A stretch of 22,314 bases of DNA, taken from a virus. The position numbers were made by a program, and so were the translations under genes. The stretch is taken from the IMG/VR virus record IMGVR_UViG_3300011126_000004, positions 1-22,314 of that record. The stretch is one strand, 5' to 3'. The notes below the pieces were generated by a model, which searched no databases, was not told where the DNA came from, and saw only the letters and a program-made list of their open reading frames with translations. Shown here piece after piece: positions 2 through 14,615 of this stretch (positions within the stretch are counted from its first letter, which is position 1; every line of letters begins with the position of its first letter).

Positions 2-83
2 GGGGATGGCTGGGTTTCGACAGTGTCTACGGCCCTACATGGGAATGCACTGGACTAGGGTTCAACTCCCTACATCTCCACCA
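2..83 (+). ncRNA. Mini tmRNA-like RNA (tRNA-like domain without mRNA-like domain)
   Basis: Seen: the 5' arm GGGGATG (2-8) pairs with CATCTCC (73-79) as a 7-bp acceptor stem whose third pair is G-U, followed by ACCA (80-83). The arm TAGGG/CCCTA (56-60 with 68-72) closes a 7-base T loop, TTCAACT. Between acceptor and next helix is GGGTTTCGAC, very close to the tmRNA 5' signature. CAGTG (21-25) pairs with CACTG (48-52), as tmRNA helix P2 would, and a small CCC/GGG hairpin (33-35 with 41-43) fills the loop. Known: tmRNA has this D-stem-less tRNA-like domain and a G3-U70 pair read by alanyl-tRNA synthetase, but is about 350 nt long. Here only about 22 nt replace the tag-coding and pseudoknot part. 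A normal tRNA fails: no 5-bp, 7-base anticodon arm can be drawn. Inferred: a chargeable tmRNA mimic, a degenerate remnant, or an attachment-site relic. The upstream promoter lies outside the window. Confidence 0.72.
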
Positions 84-106: not shown

Positions 107-256
107 ATGGCTAAGAAACAAAAGAAAGCAGAAGATTTTGCATCAAAGGTGAGAGAGTTCTTTGGAATGCCCCAGCCCGGACAGAAGAAGCTCACCCCTA
201 AAGAAATGGAACGTCAGATTAAAGCAGGACGTATTAAAAGAAAGGCTGATGAATGA
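107..256 (+). CDS. Small basic hypothetical protein (49 aa)
   Basis: This ORF encodes a 49-residue lysine-rich protein beginning MAKKQKKAEDFASKV and ending in a second basic stretch (residues 39-46, KAGRIKRK). The start ATG is preceded by AGGA at 96-99, a sound ribosome binding site. It begins 24 bases after the CCA end of the tmRNA-like RNA and its stop overlaps the next start in an ATGA junction. No catalytic motif, membrane segment or known family is recognised. The charge could suit nucleic-acid or ribosome binding, but that is only a guess. The start signal and coupling support it being a real gene. Confidence 0.6.
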   Translation: MAKKQKKAEDFASKVREFFGMPQPGQKKLTPKEMERQIKAGRIKRKADE

Positions 257-321: not shown

Positions 322-774
322 ATGGCTAAGCTAACGACAAATACAATTACAGGTGGGTATAGTTCAACAACAGAGTTGAATGACAACTTTGACTTGATTG
401 AAACAGCTGTAGAAAACACTTTGTCTAGGGATGGAACCACTCCCAATAGTATGGCAGCTGATATTGATATGGATAGCAACCGTATCACCAATCTCCCTCA
501 AGCTACATCTGGCACAGAACCTGTACGACTATTAGACATTCAAGCTAATGATGCCTCCATCCCAGACCAGACAGGGAATGCGAATAAAGTATTTAAGACA
601 GATGGCACGTCTGCTACATGGCAGACTCAGGATGCAGCTGATGTAACAAACACCCCTGCTGGAGAAATCGTAGCTACGACAGTACAGGCTGCTATTGATG
701 AACTAGATACAGAGAAACTAAATCAAGCGGAAGTTGATGCTACGGCAATTGCTTTTGCAATAGCACTATCTTAA
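322..774 (+). CDS. Tail-fibre-like virion protein (150 aa)
   Basis: The protein begins MAKLTTNTITGGYSSTTELN and carries near residues 20-60 the pattern NDNFDLIE...LSRDGTTPN...DIDMDSNRITNLP. This pattern recurs in tail-fibre and tail-spike subunits of many phages, often just before a trimeric shaft. It has no cysteine, membrane segment or catalytic motif, and ends in a helical stretch (EKLNQAEVDATAIAFAIALS), so it may be a short connector, not a full fibre. GGGAG at 311-315 sets the ATG at 322; an ATG at 318 hits a stop after three codons. It heads the cluster of small fibre-type genes. A role in fibre attachment is inferred from family resemblance and position. Confidence 0.68.
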   Translation: MAKLTTNTITGGYSSTTELNDNFDLIETAVENTLSRDGTTPNSMAADIDMDSNRITNLPQATSGTEPVRLLDIQANDASIPDQTGNANKVFKTDGTSATWQTQDAADVTNTPAGEIVATTVQAAIDELDTEKLNQAEVDATAIAFAIALS

Positions 775-3728: not shown

Positions 3729-4255
3729 TGCTATTTGAACGTGAACAACTTATCGACCATGTAGGGGCAATGCGTACACAGTCCTTATTTGTAGAAACTA
3801 ATAAATCTAAGCTAACACCTATCATGACCCTTGCGGATTATGATAAGGAATATAAGGGGGTGATTCTACCATCTCTTCATAGGGTTTATCTCGAACTTGC
3901 CGACCCTACGGAGTATTCTGTGGCAATGGAAGTATTTGGAAGTTGGAAACATTGGGAGAGATTGTTAGGTAATAAAGCTATTATGTCATTCATTAAAGAA
4001 TGGAGAGTAGAACTTGAAATTAAACTCAGAAGCGCAGGTATTAAAGCCTTGGCTGCTACAGCAACTAACGAAGGTAGTAAGGGTACAACCGCTGCAAAGT
4101 TCCTTGCCGAAAGGGGATGGGAGAAGAGAAAGGCAGGAGCACCGTCAAAAGAAGAAGTTGTTAGAGAAAAGAAAGTAGCTGCTGGTATTGAAGATGACAT
4201 TGATGCAGATTTAAAACGACTAGGTATTAATACAGGTAAGAGTTTAACACATTGA
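3728..4255 (+). CDS. Terminase small subunit (probable)
   Basis: A 175-residue charged, helical protein directly before the large terminase gene. The middle (about residues 60-110) has VFGSWKHWERLLG and IKEWRVELEIKLRSAGIKAL, and the C-terminal third carries TTAAKFLAERGWEKRKAGAPSKEE and a final charged helix. The phrase AAKFLAERGWEKR is a pattern I associate with small terminase subunits, which bind the packaging start site and load the large subunit. It is longer than T7 gp18 (89 aa). The ATG overlaps the preceding stop (TAATG) and the TGA is overlapped by the TTG of the large subunit. The call rests on position and these motifs. Confidence 0.7.
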   Translation: MLFEREQLIDHVGAMRTQSLFVETNKSKLTPIMTLADYDKEYKGVILPSLHRVYLELADPTEYSVAMEVFGSWKHWERLLGNKAIMSFIKEWRVELEIKLRSAGIKALAATATNEGSKGTTAAKFLAERGWEKRKAGAPSKEEVVREKKVAAGIEDDIDADLKRLGINTGKSLTH

Positions 4256-5823
4256 AGCAATCAGACAAAACAGCATTAATCAAGGAAGCAGCTGAATCTG
4301 ATTTATTAACATTCATAAAACTAGTTGCTCCTCATCGTGTTCTTGGGGACATACATGAATCTGTATGTAGATGGTGGACTAGAGAAGAAGCAGGGGACCA
4401 TCAGCTTCTGTTGATGCCTCGTGACCATCAGAAGAGTGCTATGATTGCTTATCGTGTTGCTTGGGAAATTACTCGTAACCCTAGTACAACTATTTTGTAC
4501 ATATCTGCAACATCAACTCTTGCTGAGAAGCAATTATATTTTATTAAAAATATATTAGAGAGTAAGATATATAGACGCTTTTGGCCTGAGATGGTGGCAG
4601 AGCAAGAAGGTAAACGTGAGAAATGGACAACATCTGAAATCTCTGTGGACCATCCTCAAAGAAAGGAAGATGGAGTTCGTGACTCTACTATTTTTACGGC
4701 TGGCCTTACTACTAGTATTACTGGCTTACACTTTGAAATTGCTGTTCTTGATGATGTGGTCGTTAAAGAGAATGCCTATACAGAAGAAGGTAGAACTAAA
4801 GTAGCTAGTCAATACTCACTACTATCTTCTATCGAATCTACAGGCACAGATGAGAATGCAACAGGTGCACAAGAATGGGTGGTTGGTACACGCTACCATC
4901 CTAAAGATTTATATAATACTCTTATCACTATGGAACATAGTGTGTATGACAAACGTGGTGAAGAGATTGAAAGTAAGAATGTCTACGAAGTGTTACAACA
5001 CGAAGTAGAAGATAGAGGTGATGGAACTGGTGAGTTTTTGTGGCCTCGTCAAATGAATGAAAGAAATAAATGGTTTGGGTTTGATATAAACATCTTGGCT
5101 AAGAAACGAGCTAAGTATATTGATAAGACACAGTATCGTGCACAGTATTATAACAATCCAAATGACCCAGATAATGCACCAATAGACCACAGTAAGTTTC
5201 AATACTATGATAAGAAACACTTAGTAGATGAAGGTGGTGTATGGTTTTATAAAGACCAACGCTTAAATGTATATGCAGCAATTGACTTTGCGTTCTCTTT
5301 ACGTAAGAAAGCTGATTATACGGCTATTGCCGTTATTGGTGTTAATGGTGAAGGTGATACATACGTCCTTGACATTGACAGATTTAAAACAGATAAGATT
5401 TCTGTATACTTTGAACATCTCTTAGCTATGTATTATAAGTGGGGATTTAAGAAGATGAGAGCTGAGGTTACAGTAGCACAACAAGCTATTGTACGTGAGC
5501 TTAAAGAAAGTTATATTAAGAAACAAGGTTTGCCTCTAAAAGTGGACGAGTACCGTCCTTCGAGGCACGAGGGGACTAAGGAGGAGCGCATTGCTTCTAT
5601 CCTTGAACCGCGCTATGACAATCTTGCTATGTGGCATTATAAAGGTGGGAACTGTTCTCTCCTAGAAGAAGAGCTTACAATGGCTCATCCCCCACATGAC
5701 GATATTAAAGATGCTCTAGCAGCTGCCATAGATATAGCGGTTCCTCCTCGTTTTTCTAATAACAGAATTAAGAAACAAGACAATATTGTATATCATAGTC
5801 GATTTGGTGGTGTAAAATTCTAA
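4252..5823 (+). CDS. Terminase large subunit (DNA-packaging ATPase and nuclease)
   Basis: A 523-residue packaging motor. The N-terminal ATPase has a Walker-A-type loop PRDHQKS (residues 56-62), the strand TTILYISATSTLAEKQ (79-94) and the Walker B strand IAVLDD (163-168). The C-terminal RNase-H-like nuclease has AAIDFAFS (Asp345), VLDID (Asp374, Asp376) and a late acidic cluster HDDIKDAL (Asp483, Asp484, Asp487), the acidic triad plan of terminases. It cuts concatemers and pumps DNA through the portal encoded next. The start is TTG at 4252, overlapping the preceding TGA, with AAGAG at 4238-4242 upstream. The first in-frame ATG is residue 55, inside the ATPase, so TTG is much more likely. Its length is near that of T7 gp19 (586 aa). 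Confidence 0.93.
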   Translation: MKQSDKTALIKEAAESDLLTFIKLVAPHRVLGDIHESVCRWWTREEAGDHQLLLMPRDHQKSAMIAYRVAWEITRNPSTTILYISATSTLAEKQLYFIKNILESKIYRRFWPEMVAEQEGKREKWTTSEISVDHPQRKEDGVRDSTIFTAGLTTSITGLHFEIAVLDDVVVKENAYTEEGRTKVASQYSLLSSIESTGTDENATGAQEWVVGTRYHPKDLYNTLITMEHSVYDKRGEEIESKNVYEVLQHEVEDRGDGTGEFLWPRQMNERNKWFGFDINILAKKRAKYIDKTQYRAQYYNNPNDPDNAPIDHSKFQYYDKKHLVDEGGVWFYKDQRLNVYAAIDFAFSLRKKADYTAIAVIGVNGEGDTYVLDIDRFKTDKISVYFEHLLAMYYKWGFKKMRAEVTVAQQAIVRELKESYIKKQGLPLKVDEYRPSRHEGTKEERIASILEPRYDNLAMWHYKGGNCSLLEEELTMAHPPHDDIKDALAAAIDIAVPPRFSNNRIKKQDNIVYHSRFGGVKF

Positions 5824-5840: not shown

Positions 5841-7616
5841 ATGGTTGCTACAGTAGAAGAGTTTAGTCAAACGCTAGACGCACACAATATGGCAACAGCC
5901 ATTACAGATAGATATGTAACATACTCTAATCAACGTCAAACTAAGATTGAAGAAACTAAAGAGTTACGTAATTATATTTTTGCTACAGATACTAGCACAA
6001 CAACTAATGCACAATTACCTTGGAAGAATAGCACCACCATTCCCAAGATATGTCAGATACGTGACAACTTACACGCTAACTATCTAAGTGCTCTATTTCC
6101 AAATGATAGATGGTTTAAGTGGGAAGCATACTCTGAAGATAGTGCTGAGAAAAAGAAAGTAGAAGCTATTGAAGCTTATATGAGTAATAAGCTTCGAGAA
6201 GGAAACTTTCAAGAAACTGTTTCTCGCATGCTATACGATTATATTGATTATGGTAATGTGTTTGCAGATTGTGATTTTCACAAAGAGAGTAAGAAAGATG
6301 AAACTGGAGAAGAAATTGTTGGCTTTGTTGGACCCAAAGCTGTACGTGTTTCACCTTACGATATTGTCTTCAATCCTGCTGCTAGTGATTTTGCTTCTAC
6401 TACTAAATACGTAAGGTATGTAAAGAGTATTGGTGAGCTTAAAGATGATGTGATGAATAAACCTGAGCTTGGATATTCTCAGGATATTATTGATGATATT
6501 ATTAATGTTCGCAAACGCCTAGCTACATACGATAAGGCAGATTGGGATAAGGCAGAAGGATACGTAGCTGATGGCTTTGGCTCCTTACAAGAATACTATG
6601 GCTCTGGACTAGTAGAAATAATTGAAGCTACTGGTGATTTTCATGACCAACACACTGGCGAGTTTTATAAAGACCATGTTATTACAATTGTTGACCGCAC
6701 TAAAGTGGTGCGTAATATCCCCAATCCTCGTTGGCTTGGTGGTAGCAGTATTGAGCATGCAGGTTGGCGTCTTCGCCCTGATAACTTATATGCAATGGGT
6801 CCTCTTGATAACTTGGTAGGTATGCAATATCGTATTGACCATTTAGAGAATCTTAAAGCTGATGTATTTGATTTGATTGCTCATCCTCCTTTGGTTATTA
6901 AAGGTGATGTAGATGATTTTACATGGGGACCCTTTGCTGAGATTAATGTAGGTGAAGATGGTTCAGTAGATATGCTTAAGTTAGATGCGACAGCTCTTAA
7001 TGCTGATATGCAAATAGCTAACTTGATGCAACAAATGGAAGAGATGGCTGGAGCACCCAAAGAATCTATGGGTATTAGAACAGCTGGTGAGAAGACAGCA
7101 TTTGAAGTTCAACAGCTTCAAAATGCTGCTGGACGTATCTTCCAACAAAAGATTACATACTTTGAGCAGAACATTATTGAGCCTCTGTTAAATAACATGC
7201 TAGAGCTTGCTCGTAGAAATATGGATGCTGGAGATATTATCCGTGTTATGGATGATGACTTAGGTGTTGTAGAGTTTTTAAATATAACTAAGAATGATAT
7301 TACAGCTAAAGGTAAGCTACGTCCTATAGGTGCTCGTCACTTCGCAGCACAAGCTCAGCTAATCCAAAACTTAAGTGGAGTGTTCTCTTCCCCTGTGGGA
7401 CAGATGATAGCCCCTCATACGTCTTCTAAGAAGCTCTCAACGATGGTTGAGGATGTCTTAGGATTGGAGAGATTTGACTTATTCTCAGATAACATTGCTA
7501 TTATGGAACAAGCTGAAAGCCAGAAACTAGCTAACTCAGCCCAAGAGCAAGTAGAGGTTGACTCAGTTACCCCAGCAGAAGAAGGAGCACCTAATGCCAT
7601 CCAGCCCGAATTATAA
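5841..7616 (+). CDS. Portal protein (head-tail connector)
   Basis: A 591-residue protein of the podovirus portal type (T7 gp8 is 536 aa). It should form the ring at one capsid vertex through which the terminase pumps DNA and to which the tail binds. Supporting segments: PWKNSTTIPKICQIRDNLHANYL (about 60-82), FPNDRWFKWE (about 86-95), NVFADCDFH (about 138-146), and, in the C-terminal half, the GPLDNLVGMQYRIDHLENLKADVFDLIAHPP region, MAGAPKESMGIRTAGEKTAFEVQQLQNAAGRIFQQKI and the basic C-terminal domain. The Q/A/E-rich tail is typical. GGAG at 5825-5828 lies twelve bases from the ATG, farther than usual; a five-codon ORF fills the gap. The 3' end is overlapped for 23 bases by the next gene. Confidence 0.88.
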   Translation: MVATVEEFSQTLDAHNMATAITDRYVTYSNQRQTKIEETKELRNYIFATDTSTTTNAQLPWKNSTTIPKICQIRDNLHANYLSALFPNDRWFKWEAYSEDSAEKKKVEAIEAYMSNKLREGNFQETVSRMLYDYIDYGNVFADCDFHKESKKDETGEEIVGFVGPKAVRVSPYDIVFNPAASDFASTTKYVRYVKSIGELKDDVMNKPELGYSQDIIDDIINVRKRLATYDKADWDKAEGYVADGFGSLQEYYGSGLVEIIEATGDFHDQHTGEFYKDHVITIVDRTKVVRNIPNPRWLGGSSIEHAGWRLRPDNLYAMGPLDNLVGMQYRIDHLENLKADVFDLIAHPPLVIKGDVDDFTWGPFAEINVGEDGSVDMLKLDATALNADMQIANLMQQMEEMAGAPKESMGIRTAGEKTAFEVQQLQNAAGRIFQQKITYFEQNIIEPLLNNMLELARRNMDAGDIIRVMDDDLGVVEFLNITKNDITAKGKLRPIGARHFAAQAQLIQNLSGVFSSPVGQMIAPHTSSKKLSTMVEDVLGLERFDLFSDNIAIMEQAESQKLANSAQEQVEVDSVTPAEEGAPNAIQPEL

Positions 7617-7863
7617 ACGGAATTATAAACAAGAAGCTAAGACAGAGACTAAAGCTCGTAAGAAGAAACGCTCCTCTCGTAACAAAGCCAGACAAACTTT
7701 AATTAAAGCTGGTAAGGCTAAAGTTGGAGATGGTAAAGATGTAGACCATAAAGACGGTAATGCTAATAATAACAAGAAGAGTAATCTTCGTGTAACTAGC
7801 AAGAAGAAGAATCGTTCATACGCTCGCACTAAAACAGCTGGGAAGAAGAATAAAAAGGACTAG
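7594..7863 (+). CDS. Small HNH-type protein (89 aa)
   Basis: A very basic protein. The region from Gly45 to Tyr76 contains VDHKDGNANNNKKSNLRVTS, the core of an HNH finger: His52 after Asp51, DGN at 54-56, and Asn64 before LRV. No zinc-binding CxxC pairs are present and the third catalytic residue is not obvious. It may be a minimal HNH nuclease or a DNA-binding relic. Small HNH proteins beside terminase and portal genes are known in several phage groups to assist terminase cutting; whether this one does is inferred. AGGAG at 7583-7587, six bases upstream, decides the start at 7594 inside the portal gene. Confidence 0.68.
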   Translation: MPSSPNYKRNYKQEAKTETKARKKKRSSRNKARQTLIKAGKAKVGDGKDVDHKDGNANNNKKSNLRVTSKKKNRSYARTKTAGKKNKKD

Positions 7864-11947: not shown

Positions 11948-14160
11948 TGGCCTCAGTCACTAAGGAATATAGAACTTTTGTTAGAGGTATTATAACAGAA
12001 GCTTCTCCTTTAACATTCCCTGAGAATGCATCTATTGACGAAGAGAACTTTATCCTTAACAGGGATGGCTCTCGTCAAAGACGTTTGGGTATGGATTATG
12101 AGGAGAACTTCACCCTATCATCTAACATCACTAATGCTACGTTTGAGGATTTAGCTGTACACACAGCTGAATGGCGTAACGTGGATAATAATCCCTTAAC
12201 CAACTTCTCTGTTGTTCAAATTGGGACTATTATATATTTCTATGACTTGAGTAGTGTTCCTTTAAGTGATGGGTTAAAATCATTCACTATTGATTTAAAT
12301 ACGTACAAAACATTATACGCTTCTAATATTGGTAGTAGGCAAATATCCACTACTGTTGGTAAGGGTATTCTATATATTGTATCGCAAGACACTGTTCCTC
12401 TATACGTAGAGTATGATAGTGCTGGTGACACAATATCTATCACGGAAATTGAAGTTAAGATTAGGGACTTCCTTGGTGTTGACGATGGCTTAGATGTTGA
12501 TGAACGTCCAGCTACCCTTTCTACAGAACATAATTACAACCTCCTTAACCAAGGTTGGACAGCTACTCATATATCCTCCTTTGTAGCTGCTACAGCTACA
12601 TATCCTAGTAACGCTGATATATGGACTTTAGGTAAGGATAGTAGCGATAACTTCTCTTCTTCTTTATTACAGAAACAATATTTTGGTAATACTCCTGCCC
12701 CTAAAGGGCATTTTGTTTTAGATGCGTTTACTCGTGATAGAGATGCTGTAAGTGGATTAACAGGGATAACCACAGAATTAGAACAAGGCAGACCAGATGC
12801 TACAGCTTTTTATGCTGGTAGACTTTTTTATGCAGGTGTAGCATCAACTACTAATGCTGGTCCTACAGCTAATGGTAACATCTATTTCTCTCAGAGTTTA
12901 ACATCTGAACTTAAGTCTGGGTATTGTTACCAAGATGCTGACCCAACTGCTGAAGAAATCTCTGACCTTATTGATACTGACGGTGGGGTTATTACAATCC
13001 CTGAAGTTGGAAGAATCCTGAAGCTTGTCTCATTACGAGATAGCTTAGTTGTATTTGCTGATAATGGTGTATGGCAAATCTTAGGTGATACAGGTGCTGG
13101 CTTCATTGCTACATCATACCAAGTACAAAAGATTTCTACTGTTGGCACAATAAATGCTGATAGTATTGTAGCTGTAGAAAGTATTATATTATACTGGGCT
13201 ACTTCTGGTATTTATATTGTACAACCTGACCCTAATTCTGGGTTGTTGAGTTCTAGTAATACTACTGAAGTAACTATACAAACATTATATTTAGATATTC
13301 CTAGTGTTAGTAAAGTGTATAGTAGAGGTGTCTATGATGTAGCTGCTAAGCGTATCACATGGTTGTATAATGATGACGATGATTATGATGGTGCTACATA
13401 TAGATTCAACTATAACAAAGAACTTGTATTCGACACTGTGCTTCAAGCTTTCTATAAGAATACTATTTCAGAGTTAGCTACATTATCTCCATATGTGGCT
13501 GGTGTTGTTACCACGCCTAACTTAGTTACTGCTGATATAGCATATAATGTTATTGATGGTGGTAGTCAAGTACAAGTAGGAGGTGTTGATGTTCAAGTTA
13601 GCCTTCCTAGCTCTACTAGAGGTAGTGTGTCAACTAAGTATTTAATAGTTGAACCTCAAGACGCAACAAACTCTAAAGTTACATGGGGACAATACAATAA
13701 TACTAATTTCCTAGAGTGGGAAATGGCTGACGGTGTGGGCATTGATTTCTCCTCATTCTTACGTACAGGGCATGAGATATTCCAAGACACAATGCGTAGA
13801 AAGTATGTGCCATATTTGGTTACGCACTTCTCTCGTACAGAGACAGGCTTTGTAGATAATGGTACTGGTGGACTCGATGCTGAGAATCCTTCTGGTTGTC
13901 AAATGCAAGCTAAGTGGGGATGGAGTGACAGTGCTAATTCTGGTAAATGGAGTAATAGTCAACAGTTATATAGACTGAATAGATTGTATATACCAACAAG
14001 CTCGTCTGATTTATTTGACTATGGATATGAAGTTGTAACAACTAAGAGTAAGCTCAGGGGTAATGGTAAAGCTGTAAGCCTTCATTTTACTTCTGAATCA
14101 GGTAAAGATATGCACCTATTAGGATGGGGTGTTTCAGGGATGGGGAGTAGCACAGTATGA
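11947..14160 (+). CDS. Tail tubular protein B-like (tail nozzle, T7 gp12 type)
   Basis: A 737-residue protein close in size to T7 gp12 (794 aa). The N-terminus TFVRGIITEASPLTFPENASIDEENFILNRDGSRQRRLGMD is the usual opening of nozzle proteins, where the gene product binds the adaptor and reports input features. The middle shows beta-propeller-like repeats with GRLFYAGVAS (about 291-300), LVVFADNGVWQILGD (about 368-382) and ILYWATSGIYIVQPD (about 411-425). The C-terminal part has the strands LYRLNRLYIP and KAVSLHFTSE. It should form the hexameric tube end carrying fibres and contacting the envelope. The stop is overlapped by the next ATG (ATGA). Confidence 0.87.
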   Translation: MASVTKEYRTFVRGIITEASPLTFPENASIDEENFILNRDGSRQRRLGMDYEENFTLSSNITNATFEDLAVHTAEWRNVDNNPLTNFSVVQIGTIIYFYDLSSVPLSDGLKSFTIDLNTYKTLYASNIGSRQISTTVGKGILYIVSQDTVPLYVEYDSAGDTISITEIEVKIRDFLGVDDGLDVDERPATLSTEHNYNLLNQGWTATHISSFVAATATYPSNADIWTLGKDSSDNFSSSLLQKQYFGNTPAPKGHFVLDAFTRDRDAVSGLTGITTELEQGRPDATAFYAGRLFYAGVASTTNAGPTANGNIYFSQSLTSELKSGYCYQDADPTAEEISDLIDTDGGVITIPEVGRILKLVSLRDSLVVFADNGVWQILGDTGAGFIATSYQVQKISTVGTINADSIVAVESIILYWATSGIYIVQPDPNSGLLSSSNTTEVTIQTLYLDIPSVSKVYSRGVYDVAAKRITWLYNDDDDYDGATYRFNYNKELVFDTVLQAFYKNTISELATLSPYVAGVVTTPNLVTADIAYNVIDGGSQVQVGGVDVQVSLPSSTRGSVSTKYLIVEPQDATNSKVTWGQYNNTNFLEWEMADGVGIDFSSFLRTGHEIFQDTMRRKYVPYLVTHFSRTETGFVDNGTGGLDAENPSGCQMQAKWGWSDSANSGKWSNSQQLYRLNRLYIPTSSSDLFDYGYEVVTTKSKLRGNGKAVSLHFTSESGKDMHLLGWGVSGMGSSTV

Positions 14161-14615
14161 TAGAGTTTCAGGAAGAAGCTTTGATTGACATTTTAGATGA
14201 ATTAAAACCACTATTAACAGAACATTGGGAAGAGATTGCTCTTTATAAAGATAAGATTAAACTATCTCCAGACTATGAGCGTTACTTAATGGCTGATGAT
14301 GTTGGAGTTTTACATATCCTTACTGCTAGAGATGATGAAAAGTTAATAGGGTATTTCATATCCTTTGTACAACCTCATGTTCATTATATGGATAACACCT
14401 TTGCTATTAATGATGTATTGTTTATTCATCCTTCCTATCGTAAAGGGAGTGTTGGATATAAGTTATTTAAGCATGCAGAGAAATCATTAAAGGCTATTGG
14501 TGTAGATGTCATTATGATTCATGCTAAAGTTAAGAGAGATTTTAAACCACTTATGGATAAGCTTGGTTATGACAGAACGGAATATGTTTATAATAAATAC
14601 ATAGGTGATGAATAA
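14157..14615 (+). CDS. GNAT-like acetyltransferase in the gp13 position (152 aa)
   Basis: A 152-residue protein with a GNAT layout: N-terminal helices, strands GVLHILTARDDEKLIGYFISFV (about 50-71), then INDVLFIHPSYRKGSVGYKLFKHAEK (84-109). The loop RKGSVG (residues 95-100) stands where GNAT enzymes bind acetyl-CoA; phage members often have RGGxxG here, and Lys96 and Ser98 are mild deviations. The C-terminal part (IMIHAKVKRDFKPLMDKLGYD) resembles the last GNAT strand and helix. T7 gene 13, between the nozzle and gene 14, also encodes a GNAT-related protein, so order supports a virion-assembly homologue. Whether it is an active enzyme and what it acetylates are unknown. Confidence 0.78.
   Translation: MIEFQEEALIDILDELKPLLTEHWEEIALYKDKIKLSPDYERYLMADDVGVLHILTARDDEKLIGYFISFVQPHVHYMDNTFAINDVLFIHPSYRKGSVGYKLFKHAEKSLKAIGVDVIMIHAKVKRDFKPLMDKLGYDRTEYVYNKYIGDE

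Follow-up and report, generated by a model that had tools for sequence, protein, structure and literature searches.

Stand-alone tRNA-like domains of tmRNA type in unrelated tailed phages, candidate charged decoys against host trans-translation

A phage tmRNA gene consisting of the tRNA-like domain (TLD) only has been entered for mycobacteriophage DS6A (Hudson, Lau and Williams, PMC4131195). A DS6A-like molecule, whether chargeable or not, strongly inhibited tmRNA, perhaps through titration of SmpB (Mao et al. 2009, cited in PMC4131195), and this inhibition was found in E. coli (PMC4131195, PMC11915505). A 2025 tmRNA database, for which RefSeq viruses were searched, again gave DS6A as the phage case (PMC11915505). 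Message-less tmRNAs also occur in organelles: forms of about 65 nt are found in some plastids, and jakobid mitochondria keep message-less tmRNAs together with SmpB, which the authors regard as still helping with incomplete mRNAs (PMC11915505).

The window, that is the whole stretch of DNA analysed, is a linear virus contig of 22,314 bases that starts 1 base 5' of a tmRNA-like element, and the promoter region lies off the contig. The Rfam tmRNA model RF00023 spans bases 2 to 83 on the plus strand with a score of 63.5 bits (cmscan, E 6.6e-23; gathering score 47 bits). The alignment runs from model position 1 to 374, and 303 of the 374 positions, corresponding to the tag-coding and pseudoknot part, are deleted. 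The features of the element and of the genes downstream are as follows.

2 to 83, plus strand: whole element, a TLD-only tmRNA-like RNA with encoded CCA (RF00023 and R1 matches)
2 to 8, plus strand: 5' strand of the acceptor stem, GGGGATG; base 4 is G3 of G3-U70 (sequence)
12 to 21, plus strand: D-loop analogue GGGTTTCGAC (sequence; aligned with the RF00023 consensus GGaUUCGAC)
21 to 26, plus strand: 5' strand of the P2 helix, CAGTGT (pairs with 47 to 52)
27 to 46, plus strand: 20-nt linker replacing the pseudoknots and tag frame, with an inner hairpin CCC (33 to 35)/GGG (41 to 43) (sequence)
47 to 52, plus strand: 3' strand of the P2 helix, GCACTG (pairs with 21 to 26)
56 to 72, plus strand: T arm, TAGGG-TTCAACT-CCCTA (sequence)
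73 to 79, plus strand: 3' strand of the acceptor stem, CATCTCC; base 77 is U70 (sequence)
80 to 83, plus strand: discriminator A73 (A80) and encoded CCA (81 to 83) (sequence)
107 to 256, plus strand: first downstream open reading frame, 49 aa, MAKKQKKAEDF... (read from the sequence; no relative found)
322 to 774, plus strand: tail fibre-type protein, downstream (phrog_17587, E 6e-11)
4252 to 5823, plus strand: terminase large subunit (phrog_38; nearest records SIO1, MEP401 and CRP-4)

All seven acceptor pairs can form (2-8 with 73-79, G4-T77 being G3-U70), together with six pairs in P2 and all five in the T stem. The element thus has the parts of a tmRNA tRNA-like domain: a 7-bp acceptor with G3-U70 and A73, a stemless GG-UUCGAC segment, P2 in the place of the anticodon arm, and a T arm. 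The D-loop analogue is the region touched by SmpB in known tmRNA complexes. Unlike a full tmRNA, the element has no pseudoknots in the RF00023 alignment, and the message domain (resume codon, tag frame and stop) is absent, the linker being 20 nt long. The two halves follow each other in the order 5' then 3', which is not the order of a permuted two-piece tmRNA. The window therefore holds a gene of the DS6A kind, phage-borne and with hardly anything besides the tRNA-like domain.

The initial annotation had described a tmRNA mimic at bases 2 to 83 and had proposed a covariance search with the tmRNA models and a tRNA scan as checks. The RF00023 match (63.5 bits) and direct reading of the sequence agreed with its coordinates and parts, and ARAGORN called neither a tRNA nor a tmRNA at 2-83. 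An ordinary tRNA is ruled out, since none was called and P2 leaves no room for an anticodon arm. Single-sequence folding gave an ordinary energy for the element (z -0.82), so the evidence for it is comparative. A covariance model built from relatives with the window excluded (R1) recovered the element at 65 bits (E 3.3e-13, 754 kb searched); this match and the Rfam E-value exclude a chance match. The data support the reading of bases 2-83 as the tRNA-like domain of a tmRNA that lacks the message domain and has been maintained as a folded RNA.

Terminase and gene order place the window phage among marine podoviruses of the SIO1/Zobellviridae type. For the first proteins encoded downstream of the element, relatives were either not found or too distant for the same locus to be compared. 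Forty records related through the terminase were searched whole and gave no convincing match to the element, so the element is patchy within this phage group. Elsewhere in the window, a GNAT-type acetyltransferase gene (14157-14615, phrog_1249) lies amid structural genes, and a small lysine-rich open reading frame (7558-7863) has a DVDHKDGNANNN motif which by eye resembles an HNH-type DNA-binding or nuclease protein.

Relatives were gathered by two pattern scans of IMG/VR followed by a structural descriptor. At least 122 copies of the same build, comprising at least 90 distinct sequences, were found in IMG/VR; they measure 66-95 nt, most of them 78-84 nt. Because the patterns prescribed part of the D-loop analogue (TTCGAC) and of the T arm, conservation there is by construction. 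The acceptor stem, position 3-70, A73 and P2 lay outside the search patterns, and the descriptor permitted other 3-70 pairs. Among the matches listed, the charging determinants are invariant: G3-U70 is present in 90 of 90 distinct relatives and A73 in all 122 copies. Of the 106 raw matches to the descriptor, a set that includes about 16 of tRNA type, 25 encode CCA. P2 runs from the C of TTCGAC to the G of GGAC in 89 of the 90 relatives and usually has 6-10 pairs. It is capped by an A-rich asymmetric loop and a short hairpin, often CCG-CNNG-CGG, and in the shortest forms by a short terminal loop only. A narrower IMG/VR pattern, listed completely, gave 26 contigs, 14 of them already among the matches listed earlier; a rough extrapolation from this overlap suggests about 200 IMG/VR contigs for the strict pattern. 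A pattern specific to the window had no matches in IMG/VR. Chimeric assembly is ruled out as the origin of the short form, which recurs in many independent contigs.

R1 was built from 21 relatives of uniform spacing because a MAFFT alignment of 60 relatives, in which the spacer varies, misaligned the acceptor stem. It scored family members at 55-97 bits, as against 29 bits or less for two-piece phage tmRNAs and 18 bits for the full tmRNA of Streptomyces phage Gilson. In the 81 R1-aligned matches (80 distinct), standard pairs filled 96.3% of pair cells, compared with 68.8% after shuffling and 38-55% in slid controls, and the covariation score was 0.667 compared with 0.128 after shuffling; the alignment was fitted to R1 and is hence biased towards the structure, and the effect is far above the controls. 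Changes on both sides of a pair were found in the acceptor (pairs 4-7), in six pairs of P2, in the inner hairpin and in the two outer pairs of the T stem, and every variable P2 pair covaries. Selection on the folded RNA, which the initial annotation had thought plausible, is supported: the element recurs in many phages, and its acceptor, P2 and T stems show compensatory changes. Judged from this sequence comparison, chance or a decayed relic would be an unreasonable reading of the family.

The linker does not appear to hide a short tag. Frames running from an alanine codon to a stop were present in the linker of 24 of 68 representatives, matching the 23.8 +/- 3.9 found in shuffles, which rules out a hidden mini tag and upholds the earlier statement that a tag-coding domain is missing. 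The window has a single GCC...TAG frame, which runs through P2 into the T stem. No SmpB gene was found in 50 carrier records, so any SmpB used would be that of the host.

A pattern search of 84,980 bacterial and archaeal genomes gave 13 matches. Of the genomes concerned, 7 have a real R1 match, and in at least 3 of these the element has phage head or terminase genes next to it. Among 296 other genomes from the phylum of one carrier MAG there was no match, indicating that the model is not set off by ordinary tmRNA genes. Bacterial genomes are almost without TLD-only elements, which are phage-specific. Cultured carriers are the Streptomyces phages LuckySocke, GiJojo, pSt2308, BRock and Shaeky, in which the element lies in tRNA arrays (4 nt after tRNA-Phe in Shaeky) and is not annotated as tmRNA. 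Alone3 and Riptide have weaker, partly decayed copies, so the element is dispensable. Stanwilliamsviridae, for example Gilson, carry a full 268-nt tmRNA near tRNA genes. The 137-nt form of an uncultured 595-kb phage (LR756511.1; L316:1411-1547) combines this tRNA-like domain with a longer linker and is intermediate between the mini form and a full tmRNA. Unannotated permuted two-piece tmRNAs were also seen in Pseudomonas phage SM1 (L313:1942-2362) and Alcaligenes phage QDWS595 (L314:1941-2317), with the tags ANDTSFDVRLAA and ANDNVYAAAA. At L231:5905-6228, L285:10045-10574 and L307:3976-4601, ARAGORN paired a piece of the element, or of the sequence around it, with a false partner and called tmRNAs with implausible tags. 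There is thus an annotation gap, in that ARAGORN either misses TLD-only genes or gives their 3' half a wrong 5' end and, with it, a spurious tag.

Part of the family is placed as tRNA genes are. A tRNA gene on the same strand lies within 500 nt in 16 of 68 representatives, in some cases only 1-6 nt away (e.g. L127). Several copies lie between the genes for the head maturation protease and the major capsid protein (L140, L195, L253, L178 and L091), and others adjoin primase, helicase, endolysin or integrase genes. Among 79 dissimilar upstream regions, a -10-like box (TANNNT) was found 5-9 nt upstream in 17, compared with 4.4 expected (P 4e-6); the boxes of L140 and L195 have a terminator-like hairpin before them. 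With such upstream boxes and hairpins, some copies resemble small-RNA genes in their own right, and their transcription would begin at the mature 5' end or close to it. At position -1 G is rare (7 of 79), although no base is commoner overall; cleavage by RNase P to form the 5' end, or avoidance of a pair with C74, would produce such a bias. Pistol ribozymes above the Rfam gathering score (L231:6093-6154, minus strand; L286:706-767, plus strand) occur in two related phage contigs, on the strand of the TLD-only element and about 105 nt (L231) and 204 nt (L286) upstream of it; they perhaps free its 5' side.

We consider it rather probable that this phage gene encodes a stand-alone tRNA-like domain which acts as a charged decoy, competing with host tmRNA and damping trans-translation. 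The phage RNA would be a tmRNA pared down to the acceptor, D-loop analogue, P2 and T arm, with a short hairpin closing P2. It would be transcribed during infection and go through tRNA-type maturation, with RNase P and a CCA end. G3-U70 and A73 could allow the host alanyl-tRNA synthetase to charge it, and host SmpB and EF-Tu would bind the charged RNA. Host tmRNA may then face competition both for SmpB and for the vacant A site of a stalled ribosome, and, because an RNA without a message cannot tag the nascent chain, trans-translation would be damped during infection. Inhibition has been published only for the DS6A-like molecule in E. coli; for the family it is a proposal. As inhibition was reported irrespective of charging, titration of SmpB alone fails to explain why G3-U70 is invariant; this invariance suggests that charging matters and points to a role on the ribosome rather than to SmpB titration alone.

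The same argument makes a serious rival of tag-free rescue, in which the alanylated RNA would enter a stalled ribosome with SmpB and EF-Tu and take over the nascent chain, the complex then dissociating untagged. The RNA would be a helper and not an inhibitor, freeing ribosomes for the phage and sparing truncated phage proteins. Invariant G3-U70 and A73 imply that charging is important, and titration of SmpB alone could do without it. Jakobid mitochondria have kept both SmpB and message-less tmRNAs, and plastid forms of about 65 nt exist in addition (PMC11915505). However, the DS6A-like molecule inhibits tmRNA in E. coli, and there is no evident way to release the ribosome without a stop codon; we regard tag-free rescue as rather unlikely. 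The RNA might instead be the substrate of another alanyl-RNA-dependent enzyme, or act as a decoy for a tRNA- or tmRNA-sensing defence system: other pathways could draw on an RNA that can be alanylated but does not decode, and many carriers have large tRNA sets. No recurring partner gene was found beside the element in the loci examined, however, which makes this reading highly improbable.

Genomic placement bears on two further readings that the initial annotation had raised. The copies between the head maturation protease and major capsid genes would suit a cis-acting element, its tRNA-like fold serving as an RNase P or 3'-processing site at which a polycistronic phage transcript is cut, for example at the protease/capsid junction. 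For such a site G3-U70 and the tmRNA D-loop analogue would be superfluous, as to our knowledge RNase P needs neither. Other copies lie in tRNA arrays or beside replication, lysis and integrase genes, and some of the capsid-side copies are preceded by a terminator-like hairpin and a -10 box. With many copies in tRNA arrays or behind a -10 box of their own, processing of the late transcript is disfavoured, and we judge a cis-acting role very unlikely. A relic or attachment site, left from a host ssrA captured by an integrating ancestor, could be imagined because ssrA is a common integration site and the L256 copy lies near an integrase gene. Copies of ssrA at attP keep the 3' end only, whereas here both halves recur in the same short form in at least 90 distinct sequences with strong covariation. 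This counts against the recombination relic offered earlier, to which we give hardly any credence. DNA matches restricted to bases ~52-90 are probably in part attP-type 3'-end copies.

The element is probably not a broken gene but a means by which phages interfere with ribosome rescue in the host. For the wider proposal, that stand-alone tmRNA tRNA-like domains are a widespread and overlooked class of phage RNA serving unrelated tailed phages as alanylated decoys against host trans-translation, we see the balance as about even. If true, unrelated tailed phages would have an RNA-based takeover of the ribosome-rescue pathway. What was formerly an oddity of one mycobacteriophage becomes a testable class which includes cultured Streptomyces phages, and it raises the question of whether phages gain from blocking or from rewiring ribosome rescue. 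The family also supplies natural minimal tmRNA domains for biochemistry. Its first copy, in DS6A, was already known; its breadth as a widespread phage RNA family seems new, and a literature search largely confined to papers outside subscription returned no description of a wider TLD-only family.

Compared with known systems, the window element shares its G3-U70 acceptor, D-loop analogue, P2 and T arm with the canonical one-piece tmRNA (RF00023; full phage copies occur in Gilson and many mycobacteriophages), but it lacks pseudoknots and a tag frame and measures 82 nt as against ~270-400 nt. Permuted two-piece tmRNAs (RF04321; phages Melnitz, SM1 and QDWS595) likewise bring a tRNA-like domain of tmRNA type into phages; here the 5' half comes first and there is no message piece, and the permuted genes match RF04321, those of SM1 and QDWS595 reaching only 25-29 bits with R1. 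The tmRNAs of jakobid mitochondria and the ~65-nt forms of Mallomonadaceae plastids are also tRNA-like domains without a tag frame, but they are organellar and vertically inherited and have no host tmRNA to compete with. The TLD-only ssrA of DS6A (tmID 11587), compared by its description, resembles the family in being phage-encoded and in having little beyond the tRNA-like domain. DS6A is a single reported case, whereas the family described here comprises at least 90 distinct sequences from unrelated tailed phages, marine podoviruses among them.
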